The notes beneath the pieces are model-generated. The model saw only the letters and a program-made list of their open reading frames with translations. It did not search any database and had not been told where the DNA came from. Source: Thiohalomonas denitrificans (lineage in GTDB: Bacteria > Pseudomonadota > Gammaproteobacteria > Thiohalomonadales > Thiohalomonadaceae). Taken from it: 64,000 nucleotides of DNA. The stretch is taken from the NCBI GenBank assembly GCA_020725115.1, contig DYFR01000019.1, positions 1-64,000 on the forward strand, in the 5' to 3' direction. Positions 13,298 to 62,237 of the stretch are shown in pieces. Position numbers and translations under genes: made by a program. The stretch's first letter is position 1, and each line of letters begins with the position of its first letter.

Positions 13298-14289
13298 GGG
13301 GTCAGTTCTTTACTTTATAGCTTCCAAGACAGCCGCCAACTGTCCCGTCGGCGGGTTTGCTTCAATCTTCGCCTGAATCTGTGACACTCGCGGCGGCGAA
13401 ATCGAAGCCAGCTGCGCCACCTCCTTGAGGCTCAAATTGGCAACCCGCCGCAGCAGGTAGACCATAACCTGAAATGCCTGCTGACTCTCACGGCTGAGCA
13501 GCGCTGCCGGCTCAAGGCCATAAACTTTTGCCACCGCGTCCACAATGACCTCATGGCCCGGGCGCAGTGGCCTGCGCTGAACGGCAGGCACATCCTCCGC
13601 CGGCTGTTCCGCTGCAAGCTTTTCCATCCGCGCAAGAAAAGCGTCGTCACCAAGATACATCTGGCCGGCCAGATTTGTCCAAGGCGCTGCCAGCCCCATG
13701 CCCTGGGCGACGAAACGCGCATACGCCCGCTTTGCCGACGCCCCCGATGGGTGAAAGAGACTCCGTACCGCATCCACCGCAAGCCAGTCCGGAGCCGCCG
13801 CCGCCCCGACAGTGGCCGCATAACTGCTCCATGGCCACATGTCCGGCTGCGCCACCATCCCGGCCCGTACCGGGTTCAACACCACATAGCGACACAACTC
13901 AGACAAATAGGCGTCACGATCCACAACAATTGCCTTGTAACGCCCCTGGAAAAGGTGCCCTACCAAGCCGTGGCGGCGATTGAACGCCTGAGTATAGACA
14001 CCGTTAAGCCGCCGCATGCCGCGCCCCAGATTCGGCTCAGGCGTTTCGATCAACAAGTGGAAATGGTTACTCATCAGGCAATAGGCATAGAGTTGCCAGC
14101 CCTGCTGACGTACCTCAAGGCCCAGCAGGCGCAAAAACTGCTGCCTGTCTTCATCATCAAGGAAAATGGGCTCGCGACGATCACCGCGGCTGGTGACGTG
14201 ATATACGGCCCCAGGAAACTCCAGTCGTAATGGACGTGCCATAACGCATACCTTAGGCTGCAAAAGCTATAAGGTAAAGAACTGACCCC
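13298..14289. mobile_element. RAYT gene bracketed by 26-bp inverted REP arms
   Basis: The arm at 13298-13323 and its inverted copy at 14264-14289 match at 25 of 26 positions; the shared core is GGTCAGTTCTTTAC on one side and GTAAAGAACTGACC on the other. The transposase stop codon TAA lies inside the left arm. The same arm occurs about ten more times downstream (14957-16297) and inverted near 19221-19241. This is the layout expected of a REP/RAYT unit. Confidence 0.8.
13310..14242 (-). CDS. REP-associated tyrosine transposase (RAYT)
   Basis: This 310-residue protein starts MARPLRLEFPGAVYHVTSRG and has the Y1 (IS200-like) HUH signature NHFHLLIE near residue 61 and the Tyr-bearing helix around AYLSELCRYVVLNPVRAG. 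The C-terminal part (LSLKEVAQLASISPPRVSQIQAK) looks like a helix-turn-helix DNA-binding segment. RAYTs nick and move short REP palindromes. The gene appears intact and is flanked by inverted REP arms, with a REP array nearby. A start seven codons upstream (14263) is possible. Confidence 0.9.
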   Translation of the reverse strand: MARPLRLEFPGAVYHVTSRGDRREPIFLDDEDRQQFLRLLGLEVRQQGWQLYAYCLMSNHFHLLIETPEPNLGRGMRRLNGVYTQAFNRRHGLVGHLFQGRYKAIVVDRDAYLSELCRYVVLNPVRAGMVAQPDMWPWSSYAATVGAAAAPDWLAVDAVRSLFHPSGASAKRAYARFVAQGMGLAAPWTNLAGQMYLGDDAFLARMEKLAAEQPAEDVPAVQRRPLRPGHEVIVDAVAKVYGLEPAALLSRESQQAFQVMVYLLRRVANLSLKEVAQLASISPPRVSQIQAKIEANPPTGQLAAVLEAIK

Positions 14290-22272: not shown

Positions 22273-23484
22273 TTGAACCTGCTGCCCCAAATCCTCGCCG
22301 ACGCCGACCGCTGCGTGCTGTGCGGCATGTGCCTGCCCCACTGCCCCACCTATGGCCTGAGCCATAACGAGGCGGAGTCGCCGCGCGGGCGCATCTCGCT
22401 GATGCTGGCGGTGGCGCGCGGGCAGCTGGAGCCCACGGCAGGATTGCGCGGCCATCTGGAGCGCTGCCTCGGCTGCCGCGCCTGCGAGGCGATGTGCCCC
22501 TCGCTGGTGCCCTATGGCCGGCTGCTGCGCAACACGCGCGAACATCTGTATCGTCACGAGCACTCCCGTCTGGCCGATACCCTGGCCACACCGGCGCGGC
22601 GCCGGCTGCTGCACGGCGCGCTGCGCCTGTTTCAGGCCAGCGGCCTGCAGCGGGTGACGCAGAAACTGCACCTGCTCGGCCACAGCGCCGCCGGGCGGCT
22701 GGTGCAGGGACTGCCGGCGACCACCGCCGCCCCGGCCCTGCCGGAGTTCACGCCGGCGCAAGGCCAGGAACGCGGCCAGGTGGCGCTGTTCACCGGCTGC
22801 ACCGGCGACCTGCTGCAGCGGGCGCTGCTGCACGATGCACGACGGCTGTTGAGTGCGCTGGGCTATGCCGTGCATATTCCACCGCAACAGGGCTGCTGCG
22901 GCGCACTGCATGTGCAGCAGGGTGACGGCGAAAATGCGCGTCGGCTGGCGCGACAGAATCTGGCGGCCTTCCCTGCCGGGGCCGAGGCCATCATCAGTGT
23001 GGCCAGCGGCTGCGGCGCCCTGCTGCATGAATACGATCAGCTGCTGGAAGATGAACGGGCGACGGGCTTCGCACGGCGCGTGATCGACATCAACGCCTTT
23101 CTCGCCGGCGTGGAATGGCCGGACAGCCTGATGCTGCGCCCGCTGGCGCACAAGGTGGCGGTGCATGAGTCCTGCACCCTGCGCAACGTGCTGCACGGAC
23201 AGCAGGCGCTGTACGCGCTGCTGCGTCGTATTCCGCAACTGGAGGTGGTCGAACTGCCGCACAACGATCGCTGCTGCGGCGCCGCCGGCAGTTATCTTAT
23301 AGATGAGCCGGACAGCGCCGATGCCTTGCGCGCCGACAAGGTAGACGCAGTGACGGAACTCCAGCCTCAGTGGCTGGTGAGCGCCAACATCGGCTGCGCC
23401 ATGCATCTGGCGGCAGGGCTGCGCGGGGCGGGACTGGCGGTGGAGGTGGTGCATCCGGTGACATTGCTGGCGCGCCAATTGTAG
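22273..23484 (+). CDS. GlcF-like iron-sulfur protein (heterodisulfide reductase-related)
   Basis: This protein of about 403 residues has two [4Fe-4S] motifs near the N-terminus (CVLCGMCLPHCP and CLGCRACEAMCP) and two CCG domains (GCCGALH, RCCGAAGSY), the layout of glycolate oxidase subunit GlcF. No glcD or glcE is adjacent, so a role in another two-carbon or lactate-type dehydrogenase complex is possible. No ATG is in frame near the start; TTG at 22273 is the best candidate. Downstream is a 73-bp tandem repeat. Confidence 0.85.
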   Translation: MNLLPQILADADRCVLCGMCLPHCPTYGLSHNEAESPRGRISLMLAVARGQLEPTAGLRGHLERCLGCRACEAMCPSLVPYGRLLRNTREHLYRHEHSRLADTLATPARRRLLHGALRLFQASGLQRVTQKLHLLGHSAAGRLVQGLPATTAAPALPEFTPAQGQERGQVALFTGCTGDLLQRALLHDARRLLSALGYAVHIPPQQGCCGALHVQQGDGENARRLARQNLAAFPAGAEAIISVASGCGALLHEYDQLLEDERATGFARRVIDINAFLAGVEWPDSLMLRPLAHKVAVHESCTLRNVLHGQQALYALLRRIPQLEVVELPHNDRCCGAAGSYLIDEPDSADALRADKVDAVTELQPQWLVSANIGCAMHLAAGLRGAGLAVEVVHPVTLLARQL

Positions 23485-23520
23485 GAACCCGATTTATCGG
23501 GCACTGCGGCGTCCGGCCAG

Positions 23521-23786
23521 GCCCCATCGCCCGATGAATCGGGCTCCCACGGGAGGGGCGAAGACTCGGCGCCGTACATCGCCAAGATCAACGGCCCCAT
23601 CGCCCGGTGAATCGGGCTCCCACGGGAGGGGCGAAGACTCGGCGCCGTACATCGCCAAGATCAACGGCCCCATCGCCCGATGAATCGGGCTCCCACGGGA
23701 GGGGCGAGGACTCGGCGCCGTACATCGCCAAGATCAACGGCCCCATCGCCCGGTGAGTCCGGTTCCCACGGGAGGGCCATTGGCGC
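23521..23786. repeat. 73-bp tandem repeat, about 3.6 copies
   Basis: Copies start at 23521, 23594, 23667 and 23740 (the last partial). Each unit contains a small palindrome (CCCGATGAATCGGGCTCCCA) and a segment GACTCGGCGCCGTACATCGC. The copies differ at only a few positions. The palindrome is related to one at 21866-21890. There are no unique spacers, so it is not CRISPR. Confidence 0.9.
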
Positions 23787-23806
23787 CGGTGACCTTGCTG
23801 GCCCGA

Positions 23807-23898
23807 CAAGTGACAAGTGACAAGTGACAAGTGACAAGTGACAAGCAAAGAGAGTTTTGTGGTTACTTGCAACTTGTCACTTGGAACTTGTAACTTAC
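23807..23898. repeat. CAAGTGA-heptamer inverted element before coq7
   Basis: Left arm: about five tandem GACAAGT heptamers (23812-23844). Right arm: ACTTGCAACTTGTCACTTGG then AACTTGTAACTT (23865-23896). The core is about 20 bp. The right arm ends six bases before the coq7 ATG. Confidence 0.85.
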
Positions 23899-29944: not shown

Positions 29945-29971
29945 TGGAAACTCCAAAAGAAACCATATTGT

Positions 29972-30217
29972 CACAGAGAGCAGAGATGCAGAGTTATCAA
30001 CCTGAAAAGGGTCCGCAAATGAACGCGAATGGACGCGAATCAAAGCGCACGAACAACGGCCTAGGGCTACAGCACGGCTTCACCCGGTGGGCGAGTCGGT
30101 CACCCTTGGCAAGCCTATGAGTATTTGCGTCTATTTGCGTTCATTCGCGGACTAATTGAGGTTTTTAGGATCAAGGATGAAGCAAATAATCCCTCTCTGC
30201 GTCTCCGCGTCTCAGCG
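29972..30217. repeat. Nested inverted elements between MFS gene and trpG
   Basis: An inner element of the AAATGAACGCG family has left arm CCGCAAATGAACGCGAATGG (30013-30033) and right arm TTTGCGTTCATTCGCGGAC (30134-30152). Outside it lie degenerate GCAGAGACG-type arms (CAGAGAGCAGAGATGCAGAG near 29974 and CTGCGTCTCCGCGTCTC near 30197). The order suggests insertion of one element into another. Confidence 0.7.
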
Positions 30218-30227
30218 ACAACGGGGG

Positions 30228-32823: not shown

Positions 32824-32883
32824 CTACCAGTGGCGCCATCGCGTCGCGACCACTTCCGTCTTTGTCTTGTCGGTATGCACCAT
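32824..32883 (-). CDS. Candidate trp leader peptide (19 aa)
   Basis: A short frame begins two bases after the gph stop and reads MVHTDKTKTEVVATRWRHW. It has Trp at positions 16 and 19, the last residue before TAG, and lies 53 bases before trpE. Tryptophan codons are rare, so two at the end of a short frame before trpE suggests attenuation. A GUGUAC...GUAACAC hairpin follows, but I see no U-rich intrinsic terminator and no strong ribosome-binding site. Confidence 0.5.
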   Translation of the reverse strand: MVHTDKTKTEVVATRWRHW

Positions 32884-32885
32884 GT

Positions 32886-33563
32886 TCATTTCAGCTTGAG
32901 CAGGGTTTTCAGTTCGGCCATGGAGTCGATCACGGCATCCGGTTTGGCCTCGCGGATGTCGACGCCATGGTTGTAGCCATAGCTCACCGCCACTACCGCG
33001 TAGCCCGCGGCCCGCGCCGCCTCCACGTCGTGCATGGAGTCGCCCACCATCATGGCGTGTGCCGGCTCGACTTTAAAGAAATCGGCCGCATGGAGCAAGG
33101 GCGCCGGATGCGGCTTCTTTTGCGGCGTGGTATCACCGCTCACCACGATACCGAAGAAATCGCGTATCCCCTTGTCCCGCAGCAGCGGCTCGGTAAAGCG
33201 TGCCGCCTTGTTGGTGACGCAACCGAGCTTCACACCGGCAGCCTGCAGCGCCTCCAGCCCCTCACGCACACCGGGGAACAGACGGCTGCGCTGGCTGGTG
33301 TTGACCTGATACAGGTCGTTGAAGATGTGCAGGGCGCGCTCGAACTCGGCAGCCTCCGGCTCGGCATACAGGTCGTCGGTCAGGGCGCGCTTGACCAGGC
33401 GCTCGACGCCATTGCCGACCCAGCCGCGCACCTTGGCCTCGCCCCATACCGGGCGGCCCAGCTGCTTCATCATCTCGTCGACGCAATAGGCCAGGTCCGG
33501 CACGCTGTCCACCAGCGTGCCGTCCAGGTCGATGAGGATCATTTCAGGTTTGGCTAAAGGCAT
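32886..33563 (-). CDS. gph: Phosphoglycolate phosphatase
   Basis: This 225-residue HAD-superfamily enzyme removes phosphate from 2-phosphoglycolate. Motif I is MILIDLDGTLVDS, motif II VTNKAARF, motif III KPHPAP, and the final acids are in MMVGDSMHDVEAARAAG. The ATG at 33563 is preferred over a TTG five codons earlier. rpe-gph-trpE order is conserved in gammaproteobacteria. Confidence 0.95.
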   Translation of the reverse strand: MPLAKPEMILIDLDGTLVDSVPDLAYCVDEMMKQLGRPVWGEAKVRGWVGNGVERLVKRALTDDLYAEPEAAEFERALHIFNDLYQVNTSQRSRLFPGVREGLEALQAAGVKLGCVTNKAARFTEPLLRDKGIRDFFGIVVSGDTTPQKKPHPAPLLHAADFFKVEPAHAMMVGDSMHDVEAARAAGYAVVAVSYGYNHGVDIREAKPDAVIDSMAELKTLLKLK

Positions 33564-37928: not shown

Positions 37929-38073
37929 TCAATCAGTCCGCAAATGAACGCCAATAAACGCGAATGCTATTGCTGCCACGAAAGATGATCTGTATTCACA
38001 GCCAAACCACCTCAAGACATTTCTTCTTCACAAGGATTTGCGTCCATTCACGTCCATTTGCGGACTCAGGTTT
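37929..38073. repeat. AAATGAACGCG-family inverted element after tal
   Basis: Left arm GTCCGCAAATGAACGCCAAT (37936-37955); right arm ATTTGCGTCCATTCACGTCC then ATTTGCGGAC (38036-38065). The core of about 70 bp has no similarity to other copies. The sequence from 38066 to 38129 shows no other feature. Confidence 0.85.
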
Positions 38074-40493: not shown

Positions 40494-40642
40494 ACTCTCG
40501 CCAAGACGCCAAGCGCGCCAAGATAAGCATTACCGGAACCATCATACCCACCGCCGAGACGCGGAGGTCGCAGAGGAAAACAGATTTCTTAGACTTTCTC
40601 TGCGCCTCTGCGTCTCGGCGGTGGATTTTTTATTTGGCGCGT
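40494..40642. repeat. GCCAAGACGCC arm with an inserted GCAGAGACG element
   Basis: A CTCGCCAAGACGCCAAGCGC arm (40497-40516) is followed by a complete GCAGAGACG-type element (left arm CCACCGCCGAGACGCGGAGG from 40549; right arm CTCTGCGCCTCTGCGTCTCG to 40624). A degenerate TTGGCGCG (40635-40642) may be the opposite outer arm. This would be a nested insertion. Confidence 0.65.
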
Positions 40643-40680
40643 CGGGGGAGCGTCGCGATGACAGGCATTTTCCGGGTTGA

Positions 40681-40756: not shown

Positions 40757-41260
40757 ATGCGCCTGCAACTGCTGCCCCTGTCCCTCCTGCTCAAGAGCCT
40801 GCCCTCGGCGGTGCACAGCGAACTGCTGTCGCGCCTGTTCAACCACCTGCTCAAGGGACAGTACATCGTCGACCAGTTGCAGGAGCTGGACGGCAAGCGC
40901 CTGGCCATCGCCATCAGCGACACCGGTACCGAATTGATCTTTGCCATCAAAAATGGCCGCCTCACCCGTGCCCCGGGCAAGGCATGGGATGCGCGCATCA
41001 AGGGACGACTGGAAGAATTCTGGCTGCTCGCCACCCGCAGCGAAGACCCGGACACCCTGTTCTTCGCCCGCCGCCTCAACATCGAGGGTGAAACCGAAAC
41101 CGGTCTCTATGTGAAAAACCTGCTCGACGGCATGGACTTCGACTGGCGCATGCACATCCAGGCCGTCGCCGGCCCGCGCCTCGCGCCCTTCATCCAGCGC
41201 GCGGTGGAGCGCCTGCAACTGGACCGCCGCGTGCAGCGCTTCGCTCGTCCCCTCGTCTAA
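40757..41260 (+). CDS. ubiT: UbiT, SCP2-domain accessory factor for anaerobic ubiquinone synthesis
   Basis: This 167-residue protein has an SCP2 lipid-binding domain (about 30-130: LDGKRLAIAISDTGTELIFAIKNGRLTR, ARIKGRLEEFWLLATRSEDPDTLFFARRLNIEGETETGL). The F-ARRL-IEGETE motif is typical of UbiT/YhbT. It binds quinone intermediates for UbiU-UbiV. It is divergent or convergent to those genes at this locus. GGAG lies seven bases before the ATG. An FNR-like site precedes it. Confidence 0.92.
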   Translation: MRLQLLPLSLLLKSLPSAVHSELLSRLFNHLLKGQYIVDQLQELDGKRLAIAISDTGTELIFAIKNGRLTRAPGKAWDARIKGRLEEFWLLATRSEDPDTLFFARRLNIEGETETGLYVKNLLDGMDFDWRMHIQAVAGPRLAPFIQRAVERLQLDRRVQRFARPLV

Positions 41261-41266
41261 AAATCA

Positions 41267-41440
41267 AATCCAACGCAAAGGCGCGAAGACGCAAAGGACG
41301 CAAAGATTTCGATTCAAAACCCTTTCACCGCAGAGGCGCCGAGGTCGCAGAGTAAACCGAATCATGAACTCTCTGCGTACTCGGCGCCTCTGCGGTAAGC
41401 ATGTCATTAACTTTGCGTCTTCGCGCCTTTGCGTTGGATT
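41267..41440. repeat. Nested inverted elements between ubiT and ubiV
   Basis: Outer arms: 41267-41296 and 41411-41440 are perfect 30-bp inverted repeats (core GCAAAGGCGCGAAGACGC). Inner arms: 41327-41352 and 41371-41396 match at 24 of 26 positions (ACCGCAGAGGCGCCGAG...). The inner element belongs to the GCAGAGACG family and lies wholly inside the core of the outer one. Confidence 0.92.
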
Positions 41441-41449
41441 GTGCCTTTC

Positions 41450-42376
41450 TCACCCCCCCGACTGCGCCCGCGCCTCGCGCACCTCGCCCTGCTCCAGCCA
41501 GGCCAGTCCTGCGCTGCCGTACCAGTAGCCGTTGCAGGGTTCGCCCCGGGTAAGCCCCTGCACGGCGTCTATCCCCTGTTGCGGAGTAAGCGTGCCGTCG
41601 ATGACGGCACGAAAGGCACTGACGATCTTGTCCATGTGCCGCGACTGCGGCGACAGGCGCAGCACCTCCACGTCGAGTTCTTGCAGTTCGGGCACCGCGC
41701 CGATGAGATTGCAGGTGGCGGCGGACTGGGTCTGGATGCCGTTCATGACGAGGAACTGCGCGCCCTCCTGTGAGTTGAGCACCAGACCATCGGCAAAGTC
41801 ACCGCAGCGCAGCTGGCAGTCATCCTTGGGCAGGTTGTAGTGGCGTGCAGTGAAGCAGCGCGCCGAGAAGGCCAGCGGCATGCGGCCGAAGGCAAACACC
41901 TCGGTCTGCAGACCCGCCGGGCGGCAGGCCTGGATCGCGGCCAGGGTATCGCGCGACAGTTCCACCGGCATCACCCAGCGCTGCGCGCCCAGATCGCGGA
42001 ACAGGCCCAGCGTCTCGCAGTTGTAGGCATTGAGATGCGGCCCGGCAACGAACGGCACCTGGTTCGCCGCGAGGCGCACCGCGCCCATGTCGTTGGCCTC
42101 CACCGCAAAGCGGCCGTTATCGATGATGCGGTGCAGCGTAAGCAGTTCCGATTCCGCCTCGATCAGCGCCAGGGTGGACAGCACCACCTCCTTGCCGGCG
42201 GCGGTGAGTTCCTCGGCAATGGTCAGCCAGTCCTCCAGCCGCACCACCCGACGCTTGGAACATACCGTCTCCCCCAGATACACCACATCCACCGGCCAGT
42301 CGCAGGCCTGGCGATAGAACGCCAGCACGTCTTCCCGTGACCAGAAATACAACAACGGACCCAGTGCCAGTTTCAT
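41450..42376 (-). CDS. ubiV: UbiV, U32 family subunit of the oxygen-independent ubiquinone hydroxylase
   Basis: This 308-residue protein begins MKLALGPLLYFWSREDVLAFY and contains the U32 core VYLGETVCSKRR. The Cys set likely to hold a [4Fe-4S] cluster is C41-like (ETVCSKRR) together with SARCFTARHYNLPKDDCQLRC. With UbiU it hydroxylates ubiquinone precursors without oxygen, using prephenate as oxygen source in studied bacteria. Between ubiU and ubiT, the gene is next to repeat elements. Confidence 0.94.
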   Translation of the reverse strand: MKLALGPLLYFWSREDVLAFYRQACDWPVDVVYLGETVCSKRRVVRLEDWLTIAEELTAAGKEVVLSTLALIEAESELLTLHRIIDNGRFAVEANDMGAVRLAANQVPFVAGPHLNAYNCETLGLFRDLGAQRWVMPVELSRDTLAAIQACRPAGLQTEVFAFGRMPLAFSARCFTARHYNLPKDDCQLRCGDFADGLVLNSQEGAQFLVMNGIQTQSAATCNLIGAVPELQELDVEVLRLSPQSRHMDKIVSAFRAVIDGTLTPQQGIDAVQGLTRGEPCNGYWYGSAGLAWLEQGEVREARAQSGG

Positions 42377-42408
42377 CGAACAGCCCTCACTCAAAAATCT
42401 TTATTACT

Positions 42409-42483
42409 CTCGCCAAGACGCCAAGTGCGCCAAGAAAGGCTTTTCAGAATTGTTTTCTTGGCGGCCTTGGCGCGCTTGGCGAG
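42409..42483. repeat. GCCAAGACGCC-family inverted element between ubiU and ubiV
   Basis: Left arm CTCGCCAAGACGCCAAGTGC then GCCAAGAAA (42409-42437); right arm TTTCTTGGCGGCCTTGGCGC then GCTTGGCGAG (42454-42483). It ends 15 bases from the ubiU stop. Confidence 0.9.
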
Positions 42484-42497
42484 ATCAAATTTATAAT

Positions 42498-46820: not shown

Positions 46821-46844
46821 TTTGCTTGAATGACCCAACACAAT

Positions 46845-46930
46845 CGTAGGTCGGGTTAGGCGTAGCCGTAACCCGACGATCACGCAGATCTTTGACATGT
46901 CGGGTTACGCTGCGCTAACCCGACCTACGA
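46845..46930. repeat. GTCGGGTTA-family inverted element
   Basis: Left arm CGTAGGTCGGGTTAGGCGTA then GCCGTAACCCGAC (46845-46877), right arm GTCGGGTTACGCTGCGCTAA then CCCGACCTACG (46900-46930). Each arm is itself palindromic. This resembles a widespread REP-like unit in proteobacteria. Confidence 0.85.
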
Positions 46931-46966
46931 CTTTGTGTCTTTGCGTTGAAGGTCTGTTCACGTGTA

Positions 46967-51140: not shown

Positions 51141-51262
51141 CTAGTGGCAAGTTACAAGCGACAAGTTGCAAGAGAAAGAATGAAGTGGTGGCAATGGCAT
51201 GGCCATTCAATGAGTCCCAGGCCATGTTTTACTTGCCACTTGAAACTTGCCACTTGTCACTT
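51141..51262. repeat. CAAGTG-family inverted element after hslU
   Basis: Left arm AGTGGCAAGTTACAAGCGAC then AAGTTGCAAG (51142-51171); right arm ACTTGCCACTTGAAACTTGC then CACTTGTCACTT (51231-51262). It ends three bases before the hslU stop codon. Confidence 0.88.
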
Positions 51263-56498: not shown

Positions 56499-56602
56499 AG
56501 TTTCGAGTTTCGGGTTTCGAAAACCCGGGCACAGTCATGCCGAACTCGAAACTCGAAACTCGAAACTCGAAACTCGAAACTCGAAACTCGAAACTCGAAA
56601 CT
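56499..56602. repeat. AAACTCG-heptamer inverted element
   Basis: Left arm AGTTTCGAGTTTCGGGTTTC (56500-56519); right arm is about eight tandem GAAACTC heptamers (56543-56600). It starts five bases after the trhP stop and ends about four bases before the opposing stop. Confidence 0.88.
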
Positions 56603-61084: not shown

Positions 61085-61232
61085 ACAAGCTTCAAGTGGC
61101 AAGTGGCAAGTGGCAAGTGGCAAGTTACAAGCGGAGGAATGCGCTGTGCGCACGCTTGTTTGAATTCAAAACAGCACGAGCGCAGCGAGCTCATTCGCTT
61201 GTCACTTGTCACTTGAAACTTGTATCTGCTTT
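61085..61232. repeat. CAAGTG-family inverted element after pit
   Basis: Left arm: four tandem AAGTGGC heptamers then AAGTTACAAGCGG (61092-61133). Right arm: CGCTTGTCACTTGTCACTTG then AAACTTGTATC (61196-61226). The core is about 60 bp. Confidence 0.88.
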
Positions 61233-62088: not shown

Positions 62089-62237
62089 CTTCAACGCGAA
62101 GAATCGCAAAGCGATCTGATGAGTTCTGTTGTGGGAGACCGATTTATCGGGCGATAGGGCCTGTCCAAGCGCCGCAATCGCCCGGCATAGCCGGGTTCCC
62201 ACAGGAAATTGAAACCTTCGCGTCTTTGCGTGGAAGT
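62089..62237. repeat. Nested inverted elements after aroE
   Basis: Outer arms CAACGCGAAGAATCGCAAAG (62092-62111) and CTTCGCGTCTTTGCGTGGAA (62217-62236) are of the type seen at 41267-41440. Inside lies another inverted pair, GTGGGAGACCGATTTATCGG (62131-62150) and GGCATAGCCGGGTTCCCAC (62184-62202). The outer right arm ends nine bases from the stop of the next gene. Confidence 0.75.

Follow-up and report, generated by a model that had tools for sequence, protein, structure and literature searches.

The window analysed here (the whole 64-kb stretch, contig C9 of genome G000) contains the convergent genes ubiT and ubiV, between which one hairpin-forming repeat encloses another (Table 1). The identities of UbiT, UbiV and UbiU are backed by NCBIfam profiles. 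The outer hairpin belongs to a family that we call A and its arms are separated by 114 nt, whereas the arms of the inner hairpin, a member of family B, are only 18 nt apart. A perfect 30-bp outer inverted repeat around an inner element matching at 24 of 26 positions had been claimed from the letters of the DNA alone, and the pairing of the arms (30/30 and 24/26) confirmed this description. The RNA of the ubiT-ubiV gap is predicted to fold with -110.7 kcal/mol (z -13.6), and A-rich flanks lie beyond both arms.

Table 1 Focal nest with its neighbouring genes, and further nests and remnants in the window
Feature	Position	Strand	Remarks
ubiT	40757-41260	+	NF047962
Outer family-A hairpin, left arm	41267-41296		Pairs 30/30 with 41411-41440
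Additional unpaired A unit GACGCAAAG	41297-41305		Adjoins left A arm; read from the sequence
Inner family-B hairpin (arms 41327-41352/41371-41396)	41327-41396		Arms pair 24/26
Outer family-A hairpin, right arm	41411-41440		Same-site A arms in G001 and G003
ubiV	41450-42394	-	NF047965
Second nest: degenerate B arms (~29970-29993/30194-30219) around E palindrome (30011-30152)	29970-30219		Outer hairpin only in G004
E element CCTGAAAA...TTTTTAGG (30001-30169) with ATCAA duplication (29996-30000/30170-30174)	29996-30174
C left arm (40495-40523), B hairpin (40548-40624), degenerate C right arm	40495-40643		No element in G001 and G002
A-type arms around GTGGGAG (family G) palindrome	62089-62237		Missing from G001, G002 and G004
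F palindrome (46844-46930) followed by single A-arm remnant (46931-46952)	46844-46952

The ubiT-ubiV gap in relatives

Four congeners (G001, G002, G003 and G004) share the locus at approximately 79-86% DNA identity to the window. The assemblies of G000 and of most relatives are drafts; that of G001 consists of one contig, and it carries a nest as well. Inspection of the gap in close relatives had been proposed as a check, and it revealed that the compound structure is not common to all of them. In G000, A surrounds B; in G001, A surrounds a REP-like GTGGGAG palindrome; in G003, the A hairpin has a short loop and no insert; G004 has only B arms, and G002 has B-like arms with a different interior. 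The B hairpin within the A hairpin is thus found in neither G001 nor G003. In two other genera of the family, this gap is occupied by a D palindrome or by B arms with a REP-like element between them, and one further genus has no palindrome there. These species-by-species contents indicate that the outer A hairpin is common to G000, G001 and the outgroup-like G003, while what lies inside differs by species.

The neighbouring gap between ubiV and ubiU holds a C element (42408-42484), which is near-identical in G004 (interior 31/31), beyond the likeness of the flanking genes. At the same site, a D palindrome is found in G002 and A-type units in G001.

Repeat families

One finder rule yielded 24 strong palindromes in the window, and five Markov simulations gave 0, 1, 0, 0 and 0. 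Their arms are rows of tandem 7-10-bp units, and families were assigned by the unit motifs (A, CGCAAAG; B, CGCAGAG; C, CGCCAAG; D, CACGGGG; E, CGCAAAT; H, AAGTGAC-like; the family G palindrome is the GTGGGAG element), with termini partly set by eye. Families A, B, C and E consist of non-coding palindromes that exist in many copies and whose presence varies between congeners. With lengths of about 70-250 nt, arms of 13-35 nt and, by pattern count, more than 100 copies in G000, the elements have the size and structure of miniature inverted-repeat elements (MITEs). Genome-wide statements derive from searches and from sampled stretches of the genome. Across 398 genomes spread over the phylum, the strict A/B arm pattern occurred in just two genomes besides G000; related arms are present in other genera of the family.

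Four further palindromes of the window (23808-23896, 51143-51254, 56499-56602 and 61085-61223) have arms of tandem 7-bp units (AAGTGAC, AGTTTCG), and among the palindromes of this type that we compared, retention at the same site across congeners was more frequent than for A-E. A tandem array at 23480-23800, composed of repeats containing GCCCGATGAATCGGGCTCCCAC, is missing from G001 and G004.

Empty sites and target duplications

The nest at 29970-30219 offers a direct empty inner site, as G004 keeps the outer B hairpin without the inner E element. In the window, ATCAA flanks this element on both sides, and G004 has the single five-mer GTCGA there. CCT.AAAA-like termini and target duplications of 5 bp, for these the constant length that is seen in MITEs, are found in a B subfamily of G000 and in one E element. 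Members of this subfamily are about 165 nt long, share a conserved interior and have the ends CCTGAAAACCGCAGTTTCACCGCAGAG and termini CCTGAAAAC (an end pair of this type is written CCTGAAAAC...GTTTTCAGG). By eye, the CCTGAAAAC-ended subfamily shows three perfect 5-bp duplications and several that agree in 4/5 positions. Of 48 elements whose ends could be recognised, 3 are flanked by perfect 5-bp duplications, compared to a permuted mean of 0.4% and a maximum of 4.1% (200 permutations); the ends for this test were partly picked after seeing positive cases, and the result is hence supportive rather than independent. Empty sites of the kind expected of MITEs were also found in congeners. The terminus of the B subfamily had no match among the genome contigs of GTDB.

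The claim of the sequence-only reading that the families are or were mobile is supported by the empty sites in congeners, the 5-bp target duplications and the empty inner site of G004. Its argument that nesting implies sequential insertion is likewise backed by the relatives and by the latter site, but nesting by itself does not establish an insertion of its own for every locus.

Several B elements (L152, L154 and L195) have inserted at ATGA stop/start overlaps, where an ATGAA duplication supplies separate stop and start codons; judged by eye, these duplications leave both reading frames intact. A spacer of 14 nt that separates a stop codon from a ribosome site (G000, C6:103235) holds B in G000 and E in G001, and is empty in G004.

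Proposed succession of families at orthologous sites

In the sampled DNA, A-type arms are common and B-type arms rare in G001, and the opposite applies to G000 and G004. For every alignable A palindrome of G001 (24/24), the corresponding spacer of G000, of G004 or of both carries a B palindrome. Seen from G004, B occupies 22 of 23 such sites, the remaining one being an H array; seen from G000, it occupies 17 of 18, and the eighteenth is the focal A(B) nest. On a rough estimate, B is present in about one tenth of spacers, and chance would be a poor explanation for this match. The E sites of G001 displayed no such correspondence. At the replaced sites, the median offset between arm starts is 4 nt for the left arm and 6 nt for the right arm; interiors are alike in 0 of 40 cases.

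How could one family come to stand where another stood? On balance, and with belief only slightly ahead of doubt, we favour the explanation that an older A hairpin at ubiT-ubiV took up a younger B hairpin in its loop, and that successive MITE-like hairpin families overwrite each other at fixed junctions. A family-A hairpin would already have been present at this junction before the species split, and the younger family-B hairpin would have inserted into the A loop in the present lineage. The elements may have been moved in trans by a putative transposase of the DDE (cut-and-insert) type, for which existing hairpins at gene junctions would be preferred landing places. The nest would then represent the first stage of replacement, after which the outer arms are lost, so that the site would remain occupied while its family changes. 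In line with this, the A(B) nests and the lone A arms next to B in G000 look like intermediates of replacement, and we infer that the nest stage precedes the clean replacement. Several points count against this explanation. B arms at clean sites start where the A arms start, which is not well predicted if insertion into the loop is followed by outer-arm loss, and mosaic arms mixing A and B units occur. In addition, no transposase could be tied to A, B, C or E, most of the genomes are drafts, and a clean target duplication is readable for neither the inner B nor the outer A element of the focal nest. Since this duplication and a parent element were not found, the elements are filed here as MITE-like. 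More generally, the positions of many intergenic hairpins in this genus might be inherited and their contents not, A being overwritten by B at the same junctions via hairpin-in-hairpin insertion or arm-guided conversion, with arms as a species dialect and interiors that are new each time; this broader statement is put forward tentatively, since here doubt has a slight edge.

The coincidence of arm positions would also be expected from conversion through the arms. According to this alternative, the dispersed hairpins of a genome recombine in place (ectopically) via their similar arms, and copies from other loci overwrite arms as well as interiors, which gives rise to species dialects and leaves nests and remnants as incomplete conversions. 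Agreement of the arm positions to within a few nt and the existence of mixed A/B-unit arms speak in its favour, and so does an E element (37935-38066) whose interior is inverted compared to the orthologous copy of G004 with both flanks collinear; the arms of this element seem to have recombined. However, for 8 of 9 interiors tested, the whole genome contains no further copy that could have acted as donor, and the empty sites with 5-bp duplications are true insertions. We consider conversion an unlikely, albeit serious, explanation. Fast divergence as the origin of the unrelated interiors was also considered and is improbable, since several orthologous copies retain interiors with 83-100% identity.

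Further nests and compound elements

Three other nestings in the window had been listed alongside the focal one. Those at 29972-30217 and 62089-62237 are real, while the one at 40494-40642 is weaker, as its left C arm alone is intact. Elsewhere in G000, A(B) nests were found at C5:32874 and C11:31980, and lone A arms stand beside B at C4:67593, L328 and L335 and, within the window, beside F at 46931. Locus L021 (G000, C5, approximately 32874-33060) is a triple nest, in which A-type arms enclose a B hairpin that in turn encloses a GTGGGAG palindrome.

A compound in which E encloses C occurs with an identical junction at two loci each of G000 and G004, and this recurrence implies that a nest can itself be copied as a unit. 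For E(C), the inner element is thus fixed with its outer arms at four loci, a pattern that had been named as evidence against sequential insertion, and the view that every nest is its own separate insertion is only partly right. Could the focal nest also be a compound that was built once elsewhere and copied whole, with no insertion at ubiT-ubiV itself? The E(C) junction shared by four loci sets a precedent, and A around the GTGGGAG palindrome is recurrent as well. Such an origin is nevertheless improbable for the focal nest, given that the A hairpin lies at the same position in G001 and G003 without B and that the other A(B) nests of G000 have outer ends which differ from those of the focal one.

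Candidate movers

Returning to the favoured insertion of B into an existing A loop, we searched for the element that might have provided the transposase. Among the PF13701, PF01609 and PF01797 genes of the genus, no parent transposon with matching ends was found. IS1380 elements have CC ends and generate duplications of 4-5 bp; G000 has no copy, and the broken copy of G001 ends in CCCGGATATTTCA. DDE_Tnp_1 was rejected too, being absent from G000 and G004, and the five-copy insertion sequence of G001 ends in GGAACTTCTGC.

Alternatively, Y1 (tyrosine) transposases could mobilise the palindromes as REP-like units, as in REP/RAYT systems. This fits families F and G, whose palindromes border Y1 genes of these genomes: GTAGGTCGGGTTAG and GTGGGAG repeats surround the Y1 genes of G000:C24 and G000:C30. 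For A, B, C and E it is very improbable, because none of the 19 Y1 matches in the five genomes is flanked by arms of these families, and the 5-bp duplications of B and E do not match IS200/IS605-type movement. RAYT was accordingly dismissed as the mover of A-E, the Y1 genes being flanked by other repeats. Within the window, a Y1 (tyrosine) transposase gene at 13883-14206 has GGGGTCAG inverted repeats on either side and resembles a TIRtron unit. A GGGGWSAS-type TIR motif is present in the GGGGTCAG repeats that surround Y1 genes other than those of G000:C24 and G000:C30, and A, B, C and E are without it.

An immobile origin, with hairpins that arose where they stand and were retained by selection as ends of transcription, is scarcely credible. 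The location between convergent genes, the very stable fold and the A-rich flanks outside both arms would suit such a role, but the arm sequences are common to many copies, empty sites and duplications contradict it as sole explanation, and a consensus scan detected no intrinsic terminator in the ubiT-ubiV gap.

Implications and comparison with known systems

Orthologous sites of these genomes present a series of states (empty, plain, nested, one-arm remnant and replaced), by which the turnover of small repeats can be traced site by site. This leads to a testable question: is a hairpin at the junction useful to the host, as an RNA end or for RNA stability, whatever its family, or are hairpins merely favoured landing sites?

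A text search of the literature for twelve arm sequences retrieved no paper with any of them. Nesting itself has precedents among bacterial MITEs: BOX, RUP and SPRITE elements insert into one another to form clusters (PMC10969869), and BrickBuilt, a minisatellite-based MITE, contains another MITE within one copy (PMC4596501). The elements studied here resemble bacterial MITEs in being short, non-coding and intergenic, in their inverted repeats and nesting and, for a subset, in their target duplications. They differ in arms made of 7-10-bp units, in interiors that are mostly unique to one copy and in the exchange of one family for another at orthologous sites.

With REP/REPIN-RAYT systems and TIRtrons (PMC3733652) they share palindromic repeat families that differ between relatives, but A, B, C and E lack the GTAG tag, the GGGGWSAS motif and a flanked Y1 gene, and 5-bp duplications occur. 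REPs also serve as targets of insertion sequences (PMC1525189), which is comparable in that a palindrome acts as landing site; in our case, the incomer is a small hairpin instead of a complete insertion sequence. The DNA uptake sequence of the Neisseriaceae likewise exists in species dialects (PMC3630211), and the analogy is one of dialects alone: both are species-specific, genome-wide versions of a short repeated motif, yet the units described here are arranged in long arms and not as single short motifs. In the REP orthoswitch, new REP variants may partly replace old ones (PMC3686654). Nesting MITEs, REPs as insertion targets and partial replacement of REP variants are thus already known, and what we observe here is the replacement of hairpin families at orthologous sites.
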